Of a stretch of 45,046 nucleotides of DNA, positions 11,538 to 44,909 are shown piece after piece. The notes under the pieces were generated by a model that was not told the DNA's origin, ran no database searches, and saw nothing but the letters and a program-made list of their open reading frames with translations. The stretch comes from Verrucomicrobiota bacterium (GTDB taxonomy: Bacteria > Verrucomicrobiota > Kiritimatiellia > SS1-B-03-39 > UBA6053). Position 1 is the stretch's first letter. Each line of letters starts with the position of its first letter. The position numbers and the translations under genes are program-made. The stretch spans positions 1-45,046 of the forward strand of contig JAFIGC010000030.1 in NCBI GenBank assembly GCA_020831635.1, read 5' to 3'.

Positions 11538-13019
11538 ATGGAAAACACCCCGCCCACTTCATTTCATCAAGGCCGACCCTGGCTCTGGTTTTTGATATTC
11601 GCCCTCTTTCTGACCTCCCACCATTCGATTTTCACGGGTGAATTCGTTGGGGAGGACGAAGTGATGCAGTGGCAAACCTCCAGGAATCTTTTTGACGTCA
11701 TGCTGACGGGCTCCTTGTCGGACCGGATTCGCGGGGTCGGCAACCTCCTTGCCATGGAATGGCACCCTCCCCTGCGGTATTTGCTCAGTATCCCCGGTTC
11801 GGTACTGTTTCCATGGCAGGAGGTGGGCGTGCGTCTCGGCGCGGTCCTCTGTTCCTTGGTCATGACCCTGTTGTTGATGAAACAGGCGGCAAAGGAGGGC
11901 GGTGTCGCCGCGCGAAACATCACCGGCTTGCTGGTGGCCGCCTCGGGCGTCTACAATTGGACCTCCATGGCCTTCGCCTGGAGTCTGTTGGTCGCCGCGG
12001 TTTGCGTCTGCGCGTTGATCATGGACGAATCGTCAAAGTTGGAGCTGCCCAAAGAGAAATCGTTTTCTTGGCGGGTGCAATGCGCGTTTGGCGCCCTTTT
12101 CGTGGCCTACTTGATCAATTCCGGGGCGATCCTGTTTTCCGGGGGACTTGGCTTGGCGTTGGTGAGTGCCAACCGGAAGCGGTTGCCCTCTTTGGCACTC
12201 AACCTTGTGCCCATTGCCGCGGTATATGTGCTCTATTGGTATCTGTTTCTCGTCTTCCCGGAAATGTCGGGCCAACTGCTACAAACGCGCGCCAGGGCGG
12301 GCATGTCGGGGCTATCCGTGTCGCCGTTTCTGGAAAACCTCATGGGATGGAACGCCTACGGACTCCCCTTTCTATTCAATGCCATTTGGATGATGGGCCT
12401 GTACCGGGCCCTCAAGCGCAAGCAACCACTGGTCTGGATCGTGTCCCCGTTCGTGTTGGCCTGGAGCTTTTACCTCAGCGGACAGTCCCATCAATATTTT
12501 CTTCTCGGCACGCTTCCGCTCATCCCCTTCGGTGTGGCCCAGGTTCTTGCAGCCCTCAAACGGAAACAGTTCCCCACCCTCGCTTTCGCGGTTCCCTTCG
12601 TGATGCTGACCTTGATCTGGAACCTCTACCTCTTTCAATGGCCCTATCCCGCCCGCAAAGGAGATCTGGGGACCGCGCGACCGCCCTTGCGTTTCTTCCT
12701 TGGGTACGCGGGACGCTACCATAACGCCCGCCACGATTGGCGCGGGATCGCCCAAACCCTGAAACAAGAACTCCAACCGGGCGAAACCTACGCCCTCGAT
12801 TTCGGCGGTGCCTTCCAGGATTTCTATATGCGCGGAAATTCCGCTTTCGTGCCCATGCAAACCCAAGCGGATTTTTTGCTGACGTTTGCCGAACCCGAAG
12901 CGGTGGAATATGTATTCCACAAAAGCTTTCCCCGGAATGCCTTGAAAATGTACAAACGTTCAACCGCTTCCGAAAAACATAACCCGCTTTCCCTTGACGC
13001 ACCTGAAAGCGTTCGTTAA
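11538..13019 (+). CDS. GT-C-like membrane protein (GT39/ArnT-type)
   Basis: This 493-aa protein has about 10 hydrophobic segments spread over residues 15-400. An acidic first loop, EFVGEDEVMQWQTSRNL, corresponds to the conserved Asp/Glu pair of GT-C enzymes, and EWHPPLRY follows as the usual histidine-proline motif. The C-terminal ~90 residues are soluble. It probably transfers a lipid-phosphate-linked sugar in the periplasm. ATG at 11538 was chosen over an upstream TTG (11505) because the latter lacks a binding site and adds 11 poor residues. The sulfotransferase-like gene follows after 9 nt. Confidence 0.65.
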   Translation: MENTPPTSFHQGRPWLWFLIFALFLTSHHSIFTGEFVGEDEVMQWQTSRNLFDVMLTGSLSDRIRGVGNLLAMEWHPPLRYLLSIPGSVLFPWQEVGVRLGAVLCSLVMTLLLMKQAAKEGGVAARNITGLLVAASGVYNWTSMAFAWSLLVAAVCVCALIMDESSKLELPKEKSFSWRVQCAFGALFVAYLINSGAILFSGGLGLALVSANRKRLPSLALNLVPIAAVYVLYWYLFLVFPEMSGQLLQTRARAGMSGLSVSPFLENLMGWNAYGLPFLFNAIWMMGLYRALKRKQPLVWIVSPFVLAWSFYLSGQSHQYFLLGTLPLIPFGVAQVLAALKRKQFPTLAFAVPFVMLTLIWNLYLFQWPYPARKGDLGTARPPLRFFLGYAGRYHNARHDWRGIAQTLKQELQPGETYALDFGGAFQDFYMRGNSAFVPMQTQADFLLTFAEPEAVEYVFHKSFPRNALKMYKRSTASEKHNPLSLDAPESVR

Positions 13020-13028: not shown

Positions 13029-13832
13029 ATGGATGATGTGAATGACAGGATACCCGTTGGGTACAGGGTCATGGGGTGGCCCCGGAACCTCCGCAACTGG
13101 ATCGTGTGGAACGCCGGCTTTTGCCGCCGTCTGGGACGATACGAACCGGTCTTTGTCTACCAAATGGGAAAAGTGGCCTCCCGCTCCATTCACGAACCGC
13201 TGGACGAGATTTATCCCGGGGCGGTGGTGCATGGCCATCGATTCGATCCGGAGTATCCTCAAGGAGAAGTTGTCGAATTGTACAAAAGATGGGAGCGGGG
13301 CAAACTCAAACTCCCCTTGCATATCATCTCCCTTGCCCGTAATCCCATCGACCGGAATGTGTCCGCTTTTTTTCAAAACTTCGAACACTACACCGGGCAA
13401 AAACCACGGGAATGGCGGGGGAGCATGAGGGATTTGCTTGATTGCTTCCTCGAGGTCTTTCCCCATCACATTCCCCTCATTTGGTTTGACCACAGTCTGA
13501 AACAAAATTTCGGGGTGGATGTCTACGCCCGCCCCCTGAAAAAAGAAGGATGGTCCGTCCATGAAACCAAGGACGTTCGGGCCCTGGTCATGCGGGTGGA
13601 AATCCCGGACGAGGAAAAAACCCGCGCGGTACGGTCTTTTTTGGAACTCGACGAATTCAGCGTCGCCCGGAACAATAAATCCGGCAAAAAAGATTACGGA
13701 TCCTTGTACGCGAAATTCAAAAAAGAAGTGAAGTTACCCCGCGATTACGTGCTCCGAATGCTGGATTCCAAATATTTCCGACACTTTTATGATTCGAAAG
13801 AGGCGGCGCGCACCTTGCAGCGCTGGTGTTGA
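13029..13832 (+). CDS. Sulfotransferase-like putative capsular polysaccharide synthesis protein
   Basis: This 267-aa protein has VYQMGKVASRSI at about residues 43-54, in the position of the 5'-phosphosulfate-binding loop. SLARNPIDRNVSAFF at about 101-115 matches the 3'-phosphate site (Arg and Ser of the RxxxxxxxS pattern). This layout belongs to sulfotransferase-fold families that include the 'putative capsular polysaccharide synthesis protein' group. It would transfer sulfate from PAPS to a sugar; the APS kinase at 329-946 could supply PAPS. No Shine-Dalgarno is visible, and a promoter abuts the ATG. The substrate is unknown, and a role other than sulfotransfer is possible. Confidence 0.65.
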   Translation: MDDVNDRIPVGYRVMGWPRNLRNWIVWNAGFCRRLGRYEPVFVYQMGKVASRSIHEPLDEIYPGAVVHGHRFDPEYPQGEVVELYKRWERGKLKLPLHIISLARNPIDRNVSAFFQNFEHYTGQKPREWRGSMRDLLDCFLEVFPHHIPLIWFDHSLKQNFGVDVYARPLKKEGWSVHETKDVRALVMRVEIPDEEKTRAVRSFLELDEFSVARNNKSGKKDYGSLYAKFKKEVKLPRDYVLRMLDSKYFRHFYDSKEAARTLQRWC

Positions 13833-35921: not shown

Positions 35922-37250
35922 TTGAACCTGCTCAAACTCGAACCTTTTTCAGGCATCAGCGGGGACATGTTCCTCGGTGCCTTGGCTCCTTTGCTGGACG
36001 CGGAAGCGGAAATCGCCGCCCTCCCTGCGCGCCTGGGCCTCCAAGAGGTCACGGTCTCGTTTTCAGATGTCATCCGCTCCACCATTCGTTGCCGAAAGGC
36101 CACGGTGACCCTCCGGGGACATGCCCCCGAAGAGGCGCACGGACATGACCACCCGCACCACCATCACGGACACGAACACCCCCACGAGCACGCGCATCCC
36201 CACACGCATGGCGACAATCACCACCATGACCATGGCCACGATCAGAAACACGATCATGTCCATACCCATGATCACGACCACGGACATCACCACCACGCGC
36301 ACAGGGCCTACATCGATATCGTCAAACTGATCCAAGATTCCGACCTCAGTGACGGGGTGAAAACCCTCGCGTTGAACATGTTCCGCGAACTCGGCGAAGC
36401 CGAGTCCGAAATGCACGGCATGCCCTTGGAAAAGGTCCATTTCCATGAAGTCGGTGGCGAGGACGCCATCATCGACCTGGTGGGGGCCGCGATTCTCATC
36501 GAAAAATTGTCACCGGCCGCCGTCTACTGCACGCCCGTTTGCGTCGGTTCGGGAACCGTCAAAACCGCGCATGGTCGCCTCCCGGTTCCCGCCCCGGCCA
36601 CGCAACGTCTTTTGCAGGGCATGCCCGTTTTTGCCGGTCCCATCGAAATGGAAATGACCACCCCCACCGGGGCCGCGATTCTCAAAACCCTGTCCCCCGC
36701 CTTTACCGCCCCCACCCTCTCCGTCCACCGCACCGGCATGGGCGCGGGCACCCGCGATCCCGCCAGCCAACCCAACGCCTTGCGCGTGAGTCTTTGCAGC
36801 CAAACCGAATCCGACCCAAACGTGGAAAGCATCACCTTGCTGCAAACCAACCTCGACAACGTGACCGCCGAGGATTTGGGCGCGGACTTGCTCCAGGATT
36901 TGATCCGGGAGGGTGCCTTGGATGCCTGGTTGCAACCCGTGATCATGAAAAAAGGCCGACCAGGCAACGTGCTGGAAGTGCTCTGCACCTCCGAAACCGC
37001 CGAGGCCTTGAGCCAAATCATCCTCACCCGCTTGCCCACCCTGGGGGTTCGACGGTTTGAAGGCACCCGGCAAATATTGCCCAGAGACATTCGGGAAGTG
37101 GAGACCGACTACGGCGTCATCCAAGTCAAATGCCACCACCTCCCCGACGGCACCCTCCGCAAAATCCCGGAATACGAAGACTGCCGCAAAGCCGCCCAAA
37201 CCCACGGCGTAAGCATAGACACGGTACGAAACGCGGCGCAATTGCCGTAG
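35922..37250 (+). CDS. larC: Nickel-pincer cofactor chelatase LarC (DUF111)
   Basis: This 442-aa protein matches LarC, the CTP-dependent nickel-insertion enzyme for the nickel-pincer nucleotide of lactate racemase and relatives. It has EPFSGISGDMFLGALAPLL, KVHFHEVGGEDAIIDLVGAA, CTPVCVGSGTVKTAHGRLPV and TPTGAAILKTL. A His-rich linker at residues 73-127 holds about 30 His and is the likely metal-binding region. The N- and C-terminal parts lie in one continuous frame, unlike species with a programmed frameshift between larC1 and larC2. The start is TTG at 35922. No larA, larB or larE is in the window, so its client enzyme is unknown. Confidence 0.92.
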   Translation: MNLLKLEPFSGISGDMFLGALAPLLDAEAEIAALPARLGLQEVTVSFSDVIRSTIRCRKATVTLRGHAPEEAHGHDHPHHHHGHEHPHEHAHPHTHGDNHHHDHGHDQKHDHVHTHDHDHGHHHHAHRAYIDIVKLIQDSDLSDGVKTLALNMFRELGEAESEMHGMPLEKVHFHEVGGEDAIIDLVGAAILIEKLSPAAVYCTPVCVGSGTVKTAHGRLPVPAPATQRLLQGMPVFAGPIEMEMTTPTGAAILKTLSPAFTAPTLSVHRTGMGAGTRDPASQPNALRVSLCSQTESDPNVESITLLQTNLDNVTAEDLGADLLQDLIREGALDAWLQPVIMKKGRPGNVLEVLCTSETAEALSQIILTRLPTLGVRRFEGTRQILPRDIREVETDYGVIQVKCHHLPDGTLRKIPEYEDCRKAAQTHGVSIDTVRNAAQLP

Positions 37251-38025: not shown

Positions 38026-40449
38026 ATGATGAAATTCAGTACTTTTACGCCGTTTAAGCCCGCAAAATATATCCGGTCAATGGTTGCCGCAATGTGTGTA
38101 TTGGGTCTCTTGTTGCCAACGATGACACAAGCCCGCGAAGCCTTGATGTCCGTCGAAGAAATGGAACGGGAGGTGATCGAACCCATGGAAATGGGCTTAA
38201 AGCTGTTCCGCAAAGCGGCCCGATCCGTTCCCCGCACTTCCTTTGATCCCGCCGCCTTGTCGGAAAAATTGTCGGCGGACGCAGAGTCCACCCCAGCGGA
38301 CGCCTACCGTTGGGTTCGCGATCAGACCGAACTCCTGCCGTATGCGGGCAATCTCCGCGGCCCGGCGGGCACGCTCATGGAACGCTCGGGCAACAGTCTC
38401 GACCGCGCCCTTTTGTTGGACGCCCTTCTGGCCCATCAGGGCATCGAAAACCGACGATTGGTCCTAATACGCCTGGACGAGGCCACCGCCCGGGAATTGT
38501 GGAACGACTGGGAAGCCCACGCCACCCATGACTTTCCCTGTCAGGATTCGGACGAAAACATCGATCTGGCGGACATCGCGCGACAAGTCGCGGAAGACAT
38601 CGGCATGGACCCGGAAACCCTTGCCAGAGATTTGAGGGATGCCAAGGTACGTGGTGAAATCTTGCAGGCGGAGATGTCCGCTTCCATTGGAATACAGGCG
38701 GAGATGCTCCGGGAAGCGTTGCCCATGGAGACGGCGGAACACCGTGCCGACGCCACTGCGGATCTGCGGCATCATTGGTACCTGGAAGCGGAAATCAACG
38801 GAGAATGGCAAGGCTTCGACCCCGTTCGACGGGATCACGAACCGGGAGATCTGCTGGAGGGCACCGTCGAAACCCGGGTGGCACCCGATGAAATTCCGGG
38901 AGAGTGGCGACATCAGGTGCAAATCAAAGTCCTTGCCGAACAATGGAAGGAGCGTGCGCTCGAAGAACGCACGCTGCTGGAACACCGCTTCAATGTCACC
39001 GATCTTGAACAACCGAATTTCGCCATCCAACTCGTTCCCCCGCGTGACAACCCGCTGGATAATTTGCTCAGTGAAAACCTCACCCGCGCCGAAATCCTCG
39101 GAAAAATCGCCGAAAACGAAGAATGGGTGCCCATCCTTCGCATCGACGACGAAACCATCATCCAATTTTCCGTGCTGGCCAATGGTGACATCAACGAAGA
39201 CCCGGAAGCACCGCCGCAAGCGCGGGCCATGGGCGATGCCGTGGGCGCCCTGCGAGGATTGGGCAGACTCGGGGACGAAGAGACGCGCGAATTGTCTGCC
39301 GTCCGCCTGAAAATCACCCTCCATGCACCCGGACAAGATCCGGAAAGTCACACCCGATATTTCACCGACATTCTGGGCCCCGCCATTCGCGAGGGGGATC
39401 CCGCGAACTGGGAACCGAGCGACCGGGATCGCAAAAAACGCGCCCTGGCCATGTTGGGCGGCATCACCGTCATGCCCCTCACCCATATCCCGCACCCGGA
39501 CTGGACAAATCTACAAAGCTTTCGGGCGATGTTGGAAAACCGGGATCCGTTTCTCAGCGTGGTGGGTGGGGCGATGCAGGGGAAAATGGACGAAGTGGAC
39601 CGTGGCTTCGGAAGTTTGCGGCTTCAGCCACTGGATTTATATCAAATCGCCACCGGTCGACATCAAGCCCATCCCCTTGGCAAGGTTACCTTTGCCAACG
39701 GCATCAATTTGCTCGCCCGCGGCGAAACCCTGCAACTCAGCGGCGAAAATGACTTCATCACCTTGCGAACCCAAGACTGGATCCGCAACCAAACCCGGGC
39801 ACGGCCGGGAGTAGACGATCCGCAAACCGCCGTCTTCCTTCAGGGCATCGTGGACACCCATGTGGAGGATTTTCTCACCCGGGACGAGTCCGAACCCGAA
39901 AGACCCCGCCTGAACACCGCCCGGCAATACACCGAAGACCTGCTGGAGGGCATGGAATGGATTCGGGTGACCGACCCCACCGAACTCCAAGCACTCTCGG
40001 ACCATTTTTCAGACGACGACCTGGCCCGGTTCCGTAACATGCTAGCCGTGGGGAAACACTTACTGGTCCGCCCAAGAAAGGTCGCCCTCATGGAGGACCT
40101 TGCGCCTGCTCCAGTATGGTGGATCCTGCACCCGGAAACGGGCGTCATGCTCGGTTACGCCCTGGACGGGCGCGGGGTTACCGCCGAATACGCCCTGCAA
40201 ATGGCCTCCAATGTGTTGACGGTGATCACGGCATTGATTGATGTGGCCATTTGTGCCGGTGAAGAGGGCTGGAGTCAGGTTTGCTGTTTCGCAACCGCGG
40301 CGGCCAGCAATGCGATTGGCATGGGAATTGGAACTAAATTGAGCGGTTTGGTGGCTTCGGGAGCGATGGAAGCTGTCACCGCGTATTATGTCGGCGTCGG
40401 CTATGCGGCCGGGGCCGCCTTTGGAGGGGGGATGGTGCCATGTCCATGA
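38026..40449 (+). CDS. Secreted transglutaminase-like protein with Ser at the Cys position
   Basis: This 807-aa protein has a signal peptide (hydrophobic core AAMCVLGLLLPT, cleavage near TQA-REA at ~36). Residues ~91-145 and ~245-268 form a transglutaminase-like core: AYRWVRDQTELLPYAG, LMERSGNSLDRALLLDALL and HHWYLEAEINGEWQGFDP. The normal catalytic Cys is Ser124, while His249/250 and Asp265 are kept. The remaining ~540 residues match nothing I know. The last ~80 are hydrophobic and cysteine-containing, possibly membrane-inserted. ATG at 38026 has AAAGG 6 nt upstream. Its last 10 nt overlap the next gene. A serine hydrolase/acyltransferase or a non-catalytic binding fold are both possible. 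Confidence 0.6.
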   Translation: MMKFSTFTPFKPAKYIRSMVAAMCVLGLLLPTMTQAREALMSVEEMEREVIEPMEMGLKLFRKAARSVPRTSFDPAALSEKLSADAESTPADAYRWVRDQTELLPYAGNLRGPAGTLMERSGNSLDRALLLDALLAHQGIENRRLVLIRLDEATARELWNDWEAHATHDFPCQDSDENIDLADIARQVAEDIGMDPETLARDLRDAKVRGEILQAEMSASIGIQAEMLREALPMETAEHRADATADLRHHWYLEAEINGEWQGFDPVRRDHEPGDLLEGTVETRVAPDEIPGEWRHQVQIKVLAEQWKERALEERTLLEHRFNVTDLEQPNFAIQLVPPRDNPLDNLLSENLTRAEILGKIAENEEWVPILRIDDETIIQFSVLANGDINEDPEAPPQARAMGDAVGALRGLGRLGDEETRELSAVRLKITLHAPGQDPESHTRYFTDILGPAIREGDPANWEPSDRDRKKRALAMLGGITVMPLTHIPHPDWTNLQSFRAMLENRDPFLSVVGGAMQGKMDEVDRGFGSLRLQPLDLYQIATGRHQAHPLGKVTFANGINLLARGETLQLSGENDFITLRTQDWIRNQTRARPGVDDPQTAVFLQGIVDTHVEDFLTRDESEPERPRLNTARQYTEDLLEGMEWIRVTDPTELQALSDHFSDDDLARFRNMLAVGKHLLVRPRKVALMEDLAPAPVWWILHPETGVMLGYALDGRGVTAEYALQMASNVLTVITALIDVAICAGEEGWSQVCCFATAAASNAIGMGIGTKLSGLVASGAMEAVTAYYVGVGYAAGAAFGGGMVPCP

Positions 40450-43400
40450 AGCACCTACGGAGAAAAATGATGTTTCGCCTCTTCCCCCCGCTGATCGTTT
40501 CGTTTCTGCTGTCCGTCGTCTCCACGGTCCGGGGCGACCTGCTCGCCACCGCCGACCTTCGGGGCAACAGTCGTCCCGCCCACCCTGGTCCCGACGCCCC
40601 CAGTCGTCTCGCGCAACTGGCCGAATTGCTGGAACAAACCCGTCGGGCGGACGCCACCTTGCTTCTGGACGCCGGAAACGCGTTTCACGGCCGCGCGGAC
40701 ATCGAAAATTCGCGGGAAATGATGGCCACCTTTTTCGACACCGTCGGCTTCCATGCCCTGAATATCACCCCGGCGGATGTTTCCGACAACCCCGAGGAAC
40801 TGGTTGAACGCTTGCGCGAACACGAACTGCCCGCCATTTCCGCCAATCTCGTGCACCGCGACACCCGTGAACCCCTTTTGCCGGGTTACGTCCGTCTGGA
40901 ACACGGCGGTCGCAGCATCCAGGTCATCGGTCTCAGCGCCGACATGTCCGACGAAACCCTGCGCACCCTCGCGCCCGACGTCGCACTTTTGGACCCTGCC
41001 GAAGCCCTGCATCGTGCCCTCTCTGACGCGGATGCCGTGGACCGTGTCCTGATCATGTTCCATGGAACCCCGCTGGCCGCCATGCAAGCGATCACCCCGG
41101 TTCGGGACCGGATTCACGCCGTGGTGCTCAACGGACACGGCAACGCCAAAACCCTGGCCGGGATCCCACTGCTGTTCGCGGGAGAAAACGGCCAACAAGT
41201 GGCCCGCCTCCGCTTGGATGAGGACCCGCCCACACCGCAAATTCTAAAAATCACCCAAGACACGCCGACTCACGCGGGCGTGCAACACCAAATAGATACC
41301 GTCATTGCCTCGCACATTGAAATCCAAAACGAGCGCATGGATGATCGCGGGGTCAGCCGCCATGGTGCCCAATCGTTTGACCCCGGCGATGCCCAAGTCC
41401 AAGAGGACGCCGTGGAAGAACCGGACCGACCGGAAACGCTGCCCCGGGAAACCACTGCCGCTCCCACACCCCTGGAAGATCATCCCATCCCGCCAACGGG
41501 CAGTCTGGTGGACTTCACTCCTTCGGCCTTGGACGAGGACCCCTTGGAAAATCCGCCCGAGGGGGGACAGGCCCTCGATGCGAGCGCCACCAACCGACAA
41601 TTCCGCTTTCGTGCCTCCCATGTCTATTTTTTCGACCAAGTTGAGGGTGATGAATGGGAGGAAGGCCACATTCTGCTTGGTATTCGGCTTGAGGTCTCTC
41701 GCATACCCGATGCCGCGCAAGGCGAAATCGATCTGCGGGATCTGGATGAACGGCTGTTCGGCGTGCTCAACGGACGCACCCTCAAACGATGGAACCGTGA
41801 TCTCCGCCGAAATCCCATCGCCTTCGGCAGCCAACGCCTCCGCCTGCGCATGGACGAGGACGAAGACACCAAAGAAGGTCTGGTGTTTTATGAAGTCCCC
41901 GCCGATCAACTCGCCGCCTTTGAACTGCATGGGTTGGATCCCGAATACGGGAATGTGGTTTTGCCAATTCTGCCTGTCGGAGAAGAGATCCGGAAAAAAA
42001 CGCCGATTCACGCCCTCGAAAACCCGTTGGTCCGCATGGAAATCCACGGCATGGAATTCCGCGAATCCTTTCTCGGTGAATCCCCGAGCCGCGGCACTTG
42101 GTTGGTCTTTGATCTGCGCGGACGCGGCAATCGACAGACCGTTGCCCAAAACGATTCCGACGACGGAACCGATCCCGTGACCCTCGCCACCCAATGGCGG
42201 GATTGGCAGCCCCGGGCTCAAATCGTGATCGACGGCAAACATGCCTTCCCCTTGCAACGCGAAGGAACCGCCCTCTCGAGGGATCCCTTCTTCTTTTTGC
42301 CCGAACGCAGCGTCGGCGGAGAAATCGCCTTTGACTTGCCCCCGGACTTGTTGGAGGACGCCGCAAGCGTGGAACTGGTCCTCGGCTTCCATCCCGCCGC
42401 CATTCCCGGAGAACAAGTCCATCCCATGGACCCCATCCGTTTTGTCCTCAAGGGAACCTCGAACACACCCTCCCCCGCCGAAGACCCCTTGTTTGAAATC
42501 GATGATCTGGATTTGACCGCCCGCGTCCTCAACGCCAAACAGCCAGAGGATTTGGATGGAAGCGGGGCAGGTCGGCGAAGAAGCTGGCACGTTCTAGACG
42601 TGGAAATCACTGCCAAGGCCGACGAAGGCGTCGACTTTTCCCCGGAAGAATATTTGGAACTCGTCCACCCAAACCGAGAGTCCATCAGCATGTCCGCCAT
42701 TCACTGGAGCGGACATCCCGACACCGCCCGTTCCTCCGACCGCCTTTGGATTCCCTCCGGCGACCGACGTCGGGCCAGGGTGATTTGGCGGCCCCGCCTG
42801 GACCCCACCGAAACCGCCGTCCAATTTCGCTTCAACGGTCTGCTGTATTACCGCACCCATCCCCTGCCCTACACCGACGGCGTGGCCCTCCCCGAAGACG
42901 CCCCCGACCCGGAAACGAAAAAAAACATTTCCGAACATGGCCGCATGGTCTTCCCGGAAGCCCCCGAGCCCCAAGGCATTGCCGGCGTTGACCTGGAGCC
43001 CGAGCAAGTCAATCAAGCCATTGACCGTGGCCGCGATTACCTCTGGGCTTTCATGAAGGAAATTATCGACGACGAAGGGTACATTCCCCAATCCGGTCGG
43101 GGCGCCCGGTATAATTTTCCGGCCGTGTACGCCCTCATCAACACCGATGCCCACCTCAAATATCCCGAATTCGACGATGCCCTGCGCCACTTTCTGCGCC
43201 GCTACGACCCCCGGGAACACAACGTCTACGTCAATGGCCTCATGGCCATGATTCTCCGCGCCTACAACGACCCCGCTTTCCTCGATCAATTCGAAGAAAT
43301 CACCCGCTATTTTATCGAGGCACAGGGATTGAACGGCACTTGGGACTATAACGCCCCCGTACCCGATCATTTTTTCTCCACCTACGAACCACCCGCCGAA

Positions 43401-44909
43401 ATCGACTCAGGCGGACTCCGCATTACCGGCGGCAGCGCCCCGCCCGAAGAACCGCATGAACTGCCGGACCATCCGTTGCCACGCACACAGTCATTTGCCC
43501 TCGGCAACGAAGGCGACAATTCCACCACGCAGTTCGCCATTCTCGGCCTTTGGTCGGCACAACGGGCGGGCATCGAAGTGGACCCCGACGTCTGGCGCCG
43601 CGCCCTCCGCTCCGCCTCCAGATTTCAGAATGTCCGCGGCGACCGCTTCGGTGGTTTCGGCTACCGCGGGCGTGGCGCCCCCAGGGGCTCCATGACCGCC
43701 GCCGTGGTCAGCACCCTCGCCCTCTCCATGCGACAGCTCGACGACGAAATCGATCCCCTGCATCACCAACGCATCCGCAACGGACTCCACTGGATGACCG
43801 AACATTTTTCCGTGGAGGAAAACCCCGGACAACGCTCCGGGCGCTACAACTATTATTACCTCTATTCGCTGGAACGGCTGGGCCAAATTCTCGGCACCGA
43901 GTTCATCGGTGAGCACGAATGGTATCCCCTGGGGGCCCGTTTCTTGGTGGATTTGCAAAATAACGACGGCAGTTGGCCGGAACGCAGCGCCGAAAGCGAT
44001 CCCCGCATGACCACCGCCCTGCCGTTGCTTTTCCTGCTGCGGGCCACCCCAGGCGCGGACGAGGAACTCCAACCCGAACCCGAAGGCCCCGGCCAACTGG
44101 TCACCGTGTATGATCCTCCCGAGGACGCCCCTTCCCTCTATTTCATTTTTGACGCCTCCGGCTCCATGCGCGCCGAAATCGACGGGGTCAGCATGTTCGA
44201 TCTTTCCCGGGACGCCCTTTCCGCCCTGACCGACGAACTCCCCGACGACAGCATCGTCGGGCTGCGCGCCTTCGGCCATCGGTATCACGCCCTGCACGAC
44301 CTGGCCGACGAAGACACCGAACTGCTCGTCCCCGGCGGTCCGCTGGATCGGGAAGCCTTCGCCGACGCCATGCGCAGATTGCGCCCCCGCGGCAAAACCC
44401 CGCTCGCCCTCACCCTCGAAGAAGCCGCCGGCGATCTTCGCAGCCGCCGCTGGCGGGGAGACCGCATGACCAAAGTCATCATGTTCACCGATGGCGCCGA
44501 AGACACACGCGAAGATCCCGTTGAAGCCGCGCAAAACTTCGCCGAACGCACCGACGTGGAATTTTTCATGCTCGGGTTTGGCATCGAAAACCCCGTCTGG
44601 CTCCAGCAACTCGAAGAAATCGCCTCTACCGCCGGCGGATTGTATCACAACGTCGAAGACCTCACCAAACTCCTGGAAGAATTGCAGGCCTTGATTCATC
44701 CCCCCGCCCCAGAATTCGAACTTTTCGATGCCGAAGGGCAACGCATCGCCACCGGAACCTACGGTGATGACACCCTTGAACTCGAACCCGGCGAATATCG
44801 CCTGCGTAGCGAATTGGGCGACGAAATCCACGAAAGCCAATTCTGGATCCGACCCAACGCCACCACCCGCGCCCGCTTCGACTGGTCCGCCGCCGCAAGG
44901 CATGAGTAA
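40440..44909 (+). CDS. 1489-aa secreted protein: degenerate metallophosphoesterase, three beta repeats, alpha/alpha-toroid, VWA
   Basis: After a signal peptide (~1-32), residues ~33-262 match the 5'-nucleotidase/metallophosphoesterase N-domain: ATADLRGN (DxHG with Arg), LLLDAGNAF (GD now GN), no GNHE, FHGT kept, and NGHGN (GHxH now GHGN). Residues ~385-510, ~528-672 and ~683-815 are three related beta-rich units. Residues ~852-1205 form a prenyltransferase/terpene-cyclase-like alpha/alpha-toroid (GRDYLWAFMKE, NSTTQFAILGLWSAQ, NNDGSWPE). Residues ~1232-1418 are a VWA domain with an intact MIDAS (DASGSM, GKTP, FTDGAED), then a short Ig-like end. The ATG at 40440 has GGAGGGGG 7 nt before it; ATG at 40446 (ATGA overlap) is an alternative. 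It is likely a cell-surface or periplasmic adhesion or assembly factor. Confidence 0.75.
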   Translation: MSMKHLRRKMMFRLFPPLIVSFLLSVVSTVRGDLLATADLRGNSRPAHPGPDAPSRLAQLAELLEQTRRADATLLLDAGNAFHGRADIENSREMMATFFDTVGFHALNITPADVSDNPEELVERLREHELPAISANLVHRDTREPLLPGYVRLEHGGRSIQVIGLSADMSDETLRTLAPDVALLDPAEALHRALSDADAVDRVLIMFHGTPLAAMQAITPVRDRIHAVVLNGHGNAKTLAGIPLLFAGENGQQVARLRLDEDPPTPQILKITQDTPTHAGVQHQIDTVIASHIEIQNERMDDRGVSRHGAQSFDPGDAQVQEDAVEEPDRPETLPRETTAAPTPLEDHPIPPTGSLVDFTPSALDEDPLENPPEGGQALDASATNRQFRFRASHVYFFDQVEGDEWEEGHILLGIRLEVSRIPDAAQGEIDLRDLDERLFGVLNGRTLKRWNRDLRRNPIAFGSQRLRLRMDEDEDTKEGLVFYEVPADQLAAFELHGLDPEYGNVVLPILPVGEEIRKKTPIHALENPLVRMEIHGMEFRESFLGESPSRGTWLVFDLRGRGNRQTVAQNDSDDGTDPVTLATQWRDWQPRAQIVIDGKHAFPLQREGTALSRDPFFFLPERSVGGEIAFDLPPDLLEDAASVELVLGFHPAAIPGEQVHPMDPIRFVLKGTSNTPSPAEDPLFEIDDLDLTARVLNAKQPEDLDGSGAGRRRSWHVLDVEITAKADEGVDFSPEEYLELVHPNRESISMSAIHWSGHPDTARSSDRLWIPSGDRRRARVIWRPRLDPTETAVQFRFNGLLYYRTHPLPYTDGVALPEDAPDPETKKNISEHGRMVFPEAPEPQGIAGVDLEPEQVNQAIDRGRDYLWAFMKEIIDDEGYIPQSGRGARYNFPAVYALINTDAHLKYPEFDDALRHFLRRYDPREHNVYVNGLMAMILRAYNDPAFLDQFEEITRYFIEAQGLNGTWDYNAPVPDHFFSTYEPPAEIDSGGLRITGGSAPPEEPHELPDHPLPRTQSFALGNEGDNSTTQFAILGLWSAQRAGIEVDPDVWRRALRSASRFQNVRGDRFGGFGYRGRGAPRGSMTAAVVSTLALSMRQLDDEIDPLHHQRIRNGLHWMTEHFSVEENPGQRSGRYNYYYLYSLERLGQILGTEFIGEHEWYPLGARFLVDLQNNDGSWPERSAESDPRMTTALPLLFLLRATPGADEELQPEPEGPGQLVTVYDPPEDAPSLYFIFDASGSMRAEIDGVSMFDLSRDALSALTDELPDDSIVGLRAFGHRYHALHDLADEDTELLVPGGPLDREAFADAMRRLRPRGKTPLALTLEEAAGDLRSRRWRGDRMTKVIMFTDGAEDTREDPVEAAQNFAERTDVEFFMLGFGIENPVWLQQLEEIASTAGGLYHNVEDLTKLLEELQALIHPPAPEFELFDAEGQRIATGTYGDDTLELEPGEYRLRSELGDEIHESQFWIRPNATTRARFDWSAAARHE

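Follow-up and report, generated by a model that had tools for sequence, protein, structure and literature searches.

At the end of the window, i.e. the whole 45,046 nt stretch of DNA analysed, two overlapping open reading frames encode large proteins that look exported and whose enzyme-like domains have lost residues of their active sites. The question is what such a pair does. The window is the entire contig C65 of a 6.0 Mb genome consisting of 308 contigs.

The gene pair

The region had been read, from its letters alone, as two overlapping genes of 807 and 1489 aa, and an open reading frame check returns exactly these coordinates:

38026–40449, + strand: gene 1, 807-aa exported pseudo-transglutaminase protein (open reading frame, homologues, AF2 model)
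40440–44909, + strand: gene 2, 1489-aa exported UshA-like/beta/toroid/VWA protein (open reading frame, homologues)

The overlap is 10 bp and both open reading frames start with ATG. The GC content by codon position is of the coding type (gene 1, 0.66/0.44/0.67; gene 2, 0.69/0.44/0.70), which together with the presence of close homologues indicates that both are real genes. Homologues of both keep the same layout. A second syntenic copy of the pair, in the same order, is found on contig C226 of the same genome, with amino acid identities of 58% for gene 1 and 45% for gene 2. Contig C65 ends 137 bases past gene 2, and the downstream flank lies outside the view of the assembly.

Gene 1, a transglutaminase fold without its cysteine

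Gene 1 displays a signal-peptide-like start, a transglutaminase (TG)-like core, a beta/alpha body that yields no recognisable family, and a hydrophobic tail:

38026–38136, + strand: N-terminal signal-peptide-like segment (hydropathy; hydrophobic stretch from about residue 15)
38287–38841, + strand: transglutaminase-like core, residues ~88–272 (Pfam PF01841, Foldseek 3isr)
38389–38406, + strand: GNSLDR motif, with Ser124 replacing the catalytic Cys (alignments)
38773–38820, + strand: His250 (38773–38775) and Asp265 (38818–38820), the kept remainder of the triad (alignments)
40186–40446, + strand: hydrophobic C-terminal tail, residues 721–807, with four Cys, a possible membrane anchor (low model confidence)

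The transglutaminase-like assignment, also part of the sequence-only reading, finds support in both sequence and structure comparisons. The Pfam Transglut_core match is sub-threshold in the window copy (E-value = 0.097) and reaches 5e-4 in the C226 paralogue; the Pfam scan of gene 1 gives no other match. An AF2 model based on 22 homologues has a pTM of 0.81, residues 721–807 being uncertain, and its best Foldseek match in the PDB is the transglutaminase-like cysteine protease 3isr (probability 0.99, E-value = 0.15, about 270 columns). Foldseek on the full model recognises the TG core alone, with poor E-values, and a PDB sequence search with gene 1 gives nothing meaningful. The signal peptides proposed earlier for both proteins agree with N-termini that are signal-peptide-like as judged by hydropathy.

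The catalytic Cys-His-Asp triad is incomplete in all gene 1 homologues compared. At the nucleophile position the 38 homologues show Ser (32), Ala (4), His (1) or Gln (1) and never Cys; to some extent the search itself favours Ser, as the wide gene 1 scan used a pattern demanding S, Q or H at this position. Homologues collected with an HMM that makes no such demand have Ser or Ala, and again no Cys. The His and Asp are kept in most members and lost in three (G003, G001, G002). Alignments thus mark the TG fold of gene 1 as a predicted, maintained pseudoenzyme.

Gene 1 homologues in Acidobacteria and Gemmatimonadales (L145, L149, L151, L148) carry long N-terminal extensions, which are hydrophobic and multi-helix in L145, L148 and L151. 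Where these sequences are complete, Gly- or Pro-rich C-termini replace the four-Cys tail. Further Acidobacteria proteins of about 700 aa (L185–L192), with a TG core mostly of the GNA[IL]DQ type, are apparently a sister group of gene 1.

Gene 2, a modular exported protein

The domain order first proposed for gene 2, phosphoesterase-like, beta-repeat, toroid and VWA, is recovered by comparison with NF041198, Foldseek and Pfam, and a C-terminal beta tail can be added to it:

40515–41294, + strand: UshA-like (NF041198-related) domain; the CxxC of relatives is lost in this genome
41580–42899, + strand: telokin/DUF4352-like beta domains (model and Foldseek)
42972–44084, + strand: alpha/alpha toroid (model and Foldseek, homologues)
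44136–44687, + strand: VWA domain with intact MIDAS (Pfam, alignments)
44151–44165, 44397–44399 and 44490–44492, + strand: MIDAS residues D1238-x-S-x-S, T1320 and D1351, respectively
44700–44906, + strand: C-terminal beta tail, PEGA-like in one other-phylum partner

The N-terminal domain aligns with the UshA-like (seleno)protein (PCGU) family NF041198 at an E-value of 8e-12, but its 44.4 bits are far below the cut-off of 275, which places it outside the family proper. Seven relatives carry a CxxC in this domain and it is gone in both copies of the present genome. The VWA domain is a clear Pfam match (1.7e-11). Alignments bear out the earlier view that the enzyme-like domains of the pair lack key catalytic residues and that the VWA MIDAS is intact. 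In some gene 2 relatives the beta tail is followed by a zinc ribbon.

A model of residues 290–1225 has a pTM of 0.50. The best Foldseek matches of the toroid are the alpha/alpha toroids of AprG (E-value = 4e-4), GH76 and A2M/C3, and those of the beta domains are MPT63/YjhA-type sandwiches. Homology of gene 2 to A2M/complement C3 was considered and rejected; the matches are weak, of low probability and spread over the whole model, and no thioester motif is seen in the toroid. The window copy is unusually short: close relatives measure about 1850–1980 aa and have an additional beta block, of about 430 aa, that it lacks. Gene 2 as a query against the genome contig collection returned zero relatives, and a PDB sequence search with it gave nothing meaningful.

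Recurrence of the pair

Gene 1 and gene 2 are found together in near relatives of the same genus, family and order, and a search of 388 genomes of the phylum adds two families from other classes (G333, G384). In a wide scan, the gene 1 alignment picked up 25 loci among 84,980 species. With taxon labels as given in the records, these are in Verrucomicrobiota, Planctomycetota, Acidobacteria, Aminicenantes, Gemmatimonadales, Deinococcota, Myxococcales, alpha- and gammaproteobacteria and a Clostridiales-labelled MAG.

After removal of duplicates, 30 distinct loci have adequate flanks, and in 22 of them a VWA gene detected with the module VWA profile adjoins gene 1 on the same strand. These 22 pairs span Verrucomicrobiota, Planctomycetota, Acidobacteriota, Aminicenantes, Pseudomonadota and the Clostridiales-labelled MAG. 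Since the loci were collected via gene 1 alone, the VWA partner was not selected for. The gap between the two genes is usually −40 to +150 bp; either gene order occurs, always on the same strand. The remaining eight loci (L049, L145, L149, L150, L155–L158) show no detectable VWA neighbour of gene 1. Homologues of the two genes that never co-occur would have spoken against a system, and adjacency over so many phyla shows the opposite. The pair is co-inherited, and it combines synteny with conserved changes, i.e. the absent Cys and a MIDAS (DxSxS...T...D) that is complete in 18 of 19 VWA partners. On the strength of these alignments the VWA domain of the partner is probably a maintained contact domain.

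The module is rare. At full length it is present in 1 of 249 Pseudomonadota genomes and 1 of 149 Acidobacteriota genomes, both of them seed genomes. An orphan gene 1 paralogue without gene 2 is found at positions 11782–14112 of L049 (G004:C99), and the same genome also has a full pair.

The rest of the partner varies. The VWA and the C-terminal beta tail are its constants, while the UshA and toroid/discoidin modules are swapped between lineages; the domain order first described for gene 2 is thus not a fixed one. A UshA domain is found in Verrucomicrobiota and Planctomycetota, plus one gammaproteobacterial neighbour gene, and a toroid in the window's family, Phycisphaerales and L143. Elsewhere the partner has a discoidin F5/8C domain, often with a second VWA. 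Modules of carbohydrate or ligand type in the partners are F5/8C and PPC.

Over 19 loci, the distances between gene 1 sequences correlate with those between VWA domains at r = 0.42, a value reached in 1 of 5000 permutations. When one member of the window's family is kept, r drops to 0.24 (165 of 5000), so part of the correlation is due to phylogeny.

A CsgG-family lipoprotein with matching zinc ribbons

A third partner, an A4-type CsgG-family lipoprotein, shares the cluster with the pair in 10 of the 15 Verrucomicrobiota/Planctomycetota loci. These are C226, with two copies in tandem, G002, also with two copies, and G001, G003, G008, G011, G333, L141, L144 and L146. Its matches to PF03783 are 64.9–75 bits, well above the cut-off of 20.8, and in G008 the match spans 5–203 of the 210 profile positions. 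The GC pair of the lipobox is invariant in A4. The A4-type subfamily is absent from the two module-free family members tested (G005, G007). Outside Verrucomicrobiota/Planctomycetota, no CsgG-like gene was found beside the pair among the loci scanned. A PDB search with the protein or its sequence profile gave nothing meaningful.

A C-terminal zinc ribbon is common to the CsgG-like protein and the VWA protein of G008, G333, L146 and G004, the ribbon-bearing CsgG-like copy of G004 being on another contig; neither protein has one in G003, L141 and L144. The concordance is thus 7 of 7 evaluable genomes, with an exact P of about 0.03 at an n of only 7. In G008 (one contig) and G333 the two C-termini are the only Zn_Ribbon_1 matches above cut-off in the genome. 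Sequence comparison thus offers in the paired ribbons a sign that the CsgG-like and VWA proteins may work together.

At L050, L091, L146 and L048 the C-terminal zinc ribbons belong to two exported proteins of one cluster and are nearly unique in their genomes. Paired ribbons of this kind are possibly a docking or sorting tag.

Proposed function

That the fold is retained although its Cys is gone, alongside a partner that keeps its MIDAS, suggests binding rather than catalysis. On balance, gene 1 and gene 2 seem to encode an envelope-located binding complex, with a putative part in adhesion or recognition. Gene 1 would be an exported pseudoenzyme that holds a peptide or glycan-peptide in its nucleophile-less TG cleft, and the hydrophobic tail with its four cysteines would fix the protein to a membrane or to a partner. 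Gene 2 would form a long exported rod with the beta domains as spacer. Its VWA would use the MIDAS for a divalent-metal-dependent contact with either gene 1 or the ligand, and its toroid, in other lineages a discoidin domain, would be a second site of ligand binding. The CsgG-family lipoprotein would tie the complex to the outer membrane in Verrucomicrobiota and Planctomycetota. A physical complex, a ligand and a surface location are what this proposal would predict. The surface or periplasmic scaffold or recognition role first guessed at agrees with the exported proteins, the discoidin, PPC and toroid modules and the CsgG-like neighbour.

A more specific proposal is put forward tentatively, and we hold it somewhat less likely to be right than wrong: that the module is an unrecognised multi-phylum envelope system of a pseudo-transglutaminase and a MIDAS-bearing VWA protein, in which, in Verrucomicrobiota/Planctomycetota, a CsgG-family outer-membrane ring docks the VWA protein via the matching zinc ribbons. 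No description of a TG-VWA(-CsgG) module was found in the open-licence literature. The claim that no system of this architecture has been described thus stands for the module in that literature, but not for the dead TG core, which has a described relative (PMC3482391).

The CsgG-like neighbour admits another explanation, in which the module serves export or assembly of the CsgG type through an outer-membrane channel ring, the TG-like and VWA proteins being periplasmic capture or gating parts or an exported appendage. The Pfam match covers nearly the whole CsgG profile, and docking of the VWA protein to such a ring could proceed via the paired zinc ribbons. However, no curli-type small repeat subunit, CsgE, CsgF or other accessory gene is recognised by eye among the neighbours inspected, the sequence profile has no PDB match, and most phyla having the pair have no CsgG-like gene beside it. 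This explanation is unlikely.

A serine at the nucleophile position in most gene 1 homologues could also mean an active enzyme, a Ser124-His250-Asp265 hydrolase or acyltransferase acting on cell-envelope substrates that the VWA protein positions. The conservation of GN-S-LDR and of the downstream DHWWV...DLDP motif over several phyla fits this. However, members with Ala, Gln or His retain the protein otherwise, and two such members adjoin a VWA gene (L179, L050); related RHS-type domains have mostly D, A or S at that position; and both the three members without His/Asp and the search pattern behind part of the Ser excess count against it. The appearance of Ala among the HMM-found homologues lowered our estimate of a catalytic serine, which is now improbable.

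Least likely is a contact-dependent conflict system akin to polymorphic toxins, in which the dead TG would anchor the system at the surface and the effector would be a separate protein. Gene 1 and RHS-associated proteins do share a dead-TG superfamily (PMC3482391), and one Acidobacteria locus has a TIR-TPR-S gene (L145:7046–8365) located 18 bp upstream of its gene 1 homologue. However, the TIR neighbour is seen once, Pfam finds neither RHS repeats nor a toxin domain in gene 1, gene 2 or the homologues scanned, the PADLOC models of anti-phage defence give no match for the window proteins and one weak hit for the Thiofilum gene 1, and the latter has no match in plasmid and phage collections.

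Two "hypothetical proteins" thereby become a gene module that is defined and makes a claim open to testing, namely that a catalytic fold is kept minus its nucleophile beside a contact domain that keeps every metal ligand. If confirmed, this would be a new kind of envelope recognition complex and would give a function to a stand-alone dead transglutaminase family. Thiofilum flexile DSM 14609 is a named strain that carries the pair, at L147, and offers a test organism.

Likeness to known systems

The inactive TG of polymorphic toxins was proposed to anchor proteins at the surface by binding peptides (Zhang et al. 2012; PMC3482391). RHS-type proteins are distant HMM matches of gene 1, and the exported N-terminal TG fold that follows a signal peptide and has lost its catalytic residues in these toxins (PMC3482391) is found in gene 1 as well. 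The toxins, however, fuse the inactive TG to RHS repeats and toxins, whereas gene 1 stands alone, at about 800 aa, and has a beta/alpha body and a hydrophobic tail of its own as well as a VWA neighbour. From the CsgG/curli secretion family the lipoprotein neighbour differs in the zinc ribbon that some members carry at the C-terminus.

RloB, from the Pseudomonas rlo operon, shows that an inactive TG facing the periplasm can be functional within an envelope system (PMC12239564). Like gene 1, it is a dead TG encoded with other envelope genes. It differs as an inner-membrane protein of seven TM helices whose partners are an aspartic protease and a protein of the ATP-grasp type, and no VWA or CsgG partner is mentioned in the passages concerned (PMC12239564). 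The vWA-MoxR ternary conflict systems also have a VWA protein in a conserved gene group, with occasional TG-like or TIR domains, but they rest on a MoxR ATPase (PMC7159879, PMC8195603); here none is recognised among the listed neighbouring open reading frames and both proteins look exported.

Surroundings in the window

Positions 329–35913 of the window carry many glycosyltransferase genes, an APS kinase (332–982) and an NKWYS capsular polysaccharide protein (13029–13829). This region upstream of the module looks like a locus for a surface, possibly sulfated, polysaccharide. It is followed at 35922–37250 by a LarC-type nickel insertion protein (PF01969, E-value = 5e-124), which displays a long His-rich insertion at about residues 73–126.
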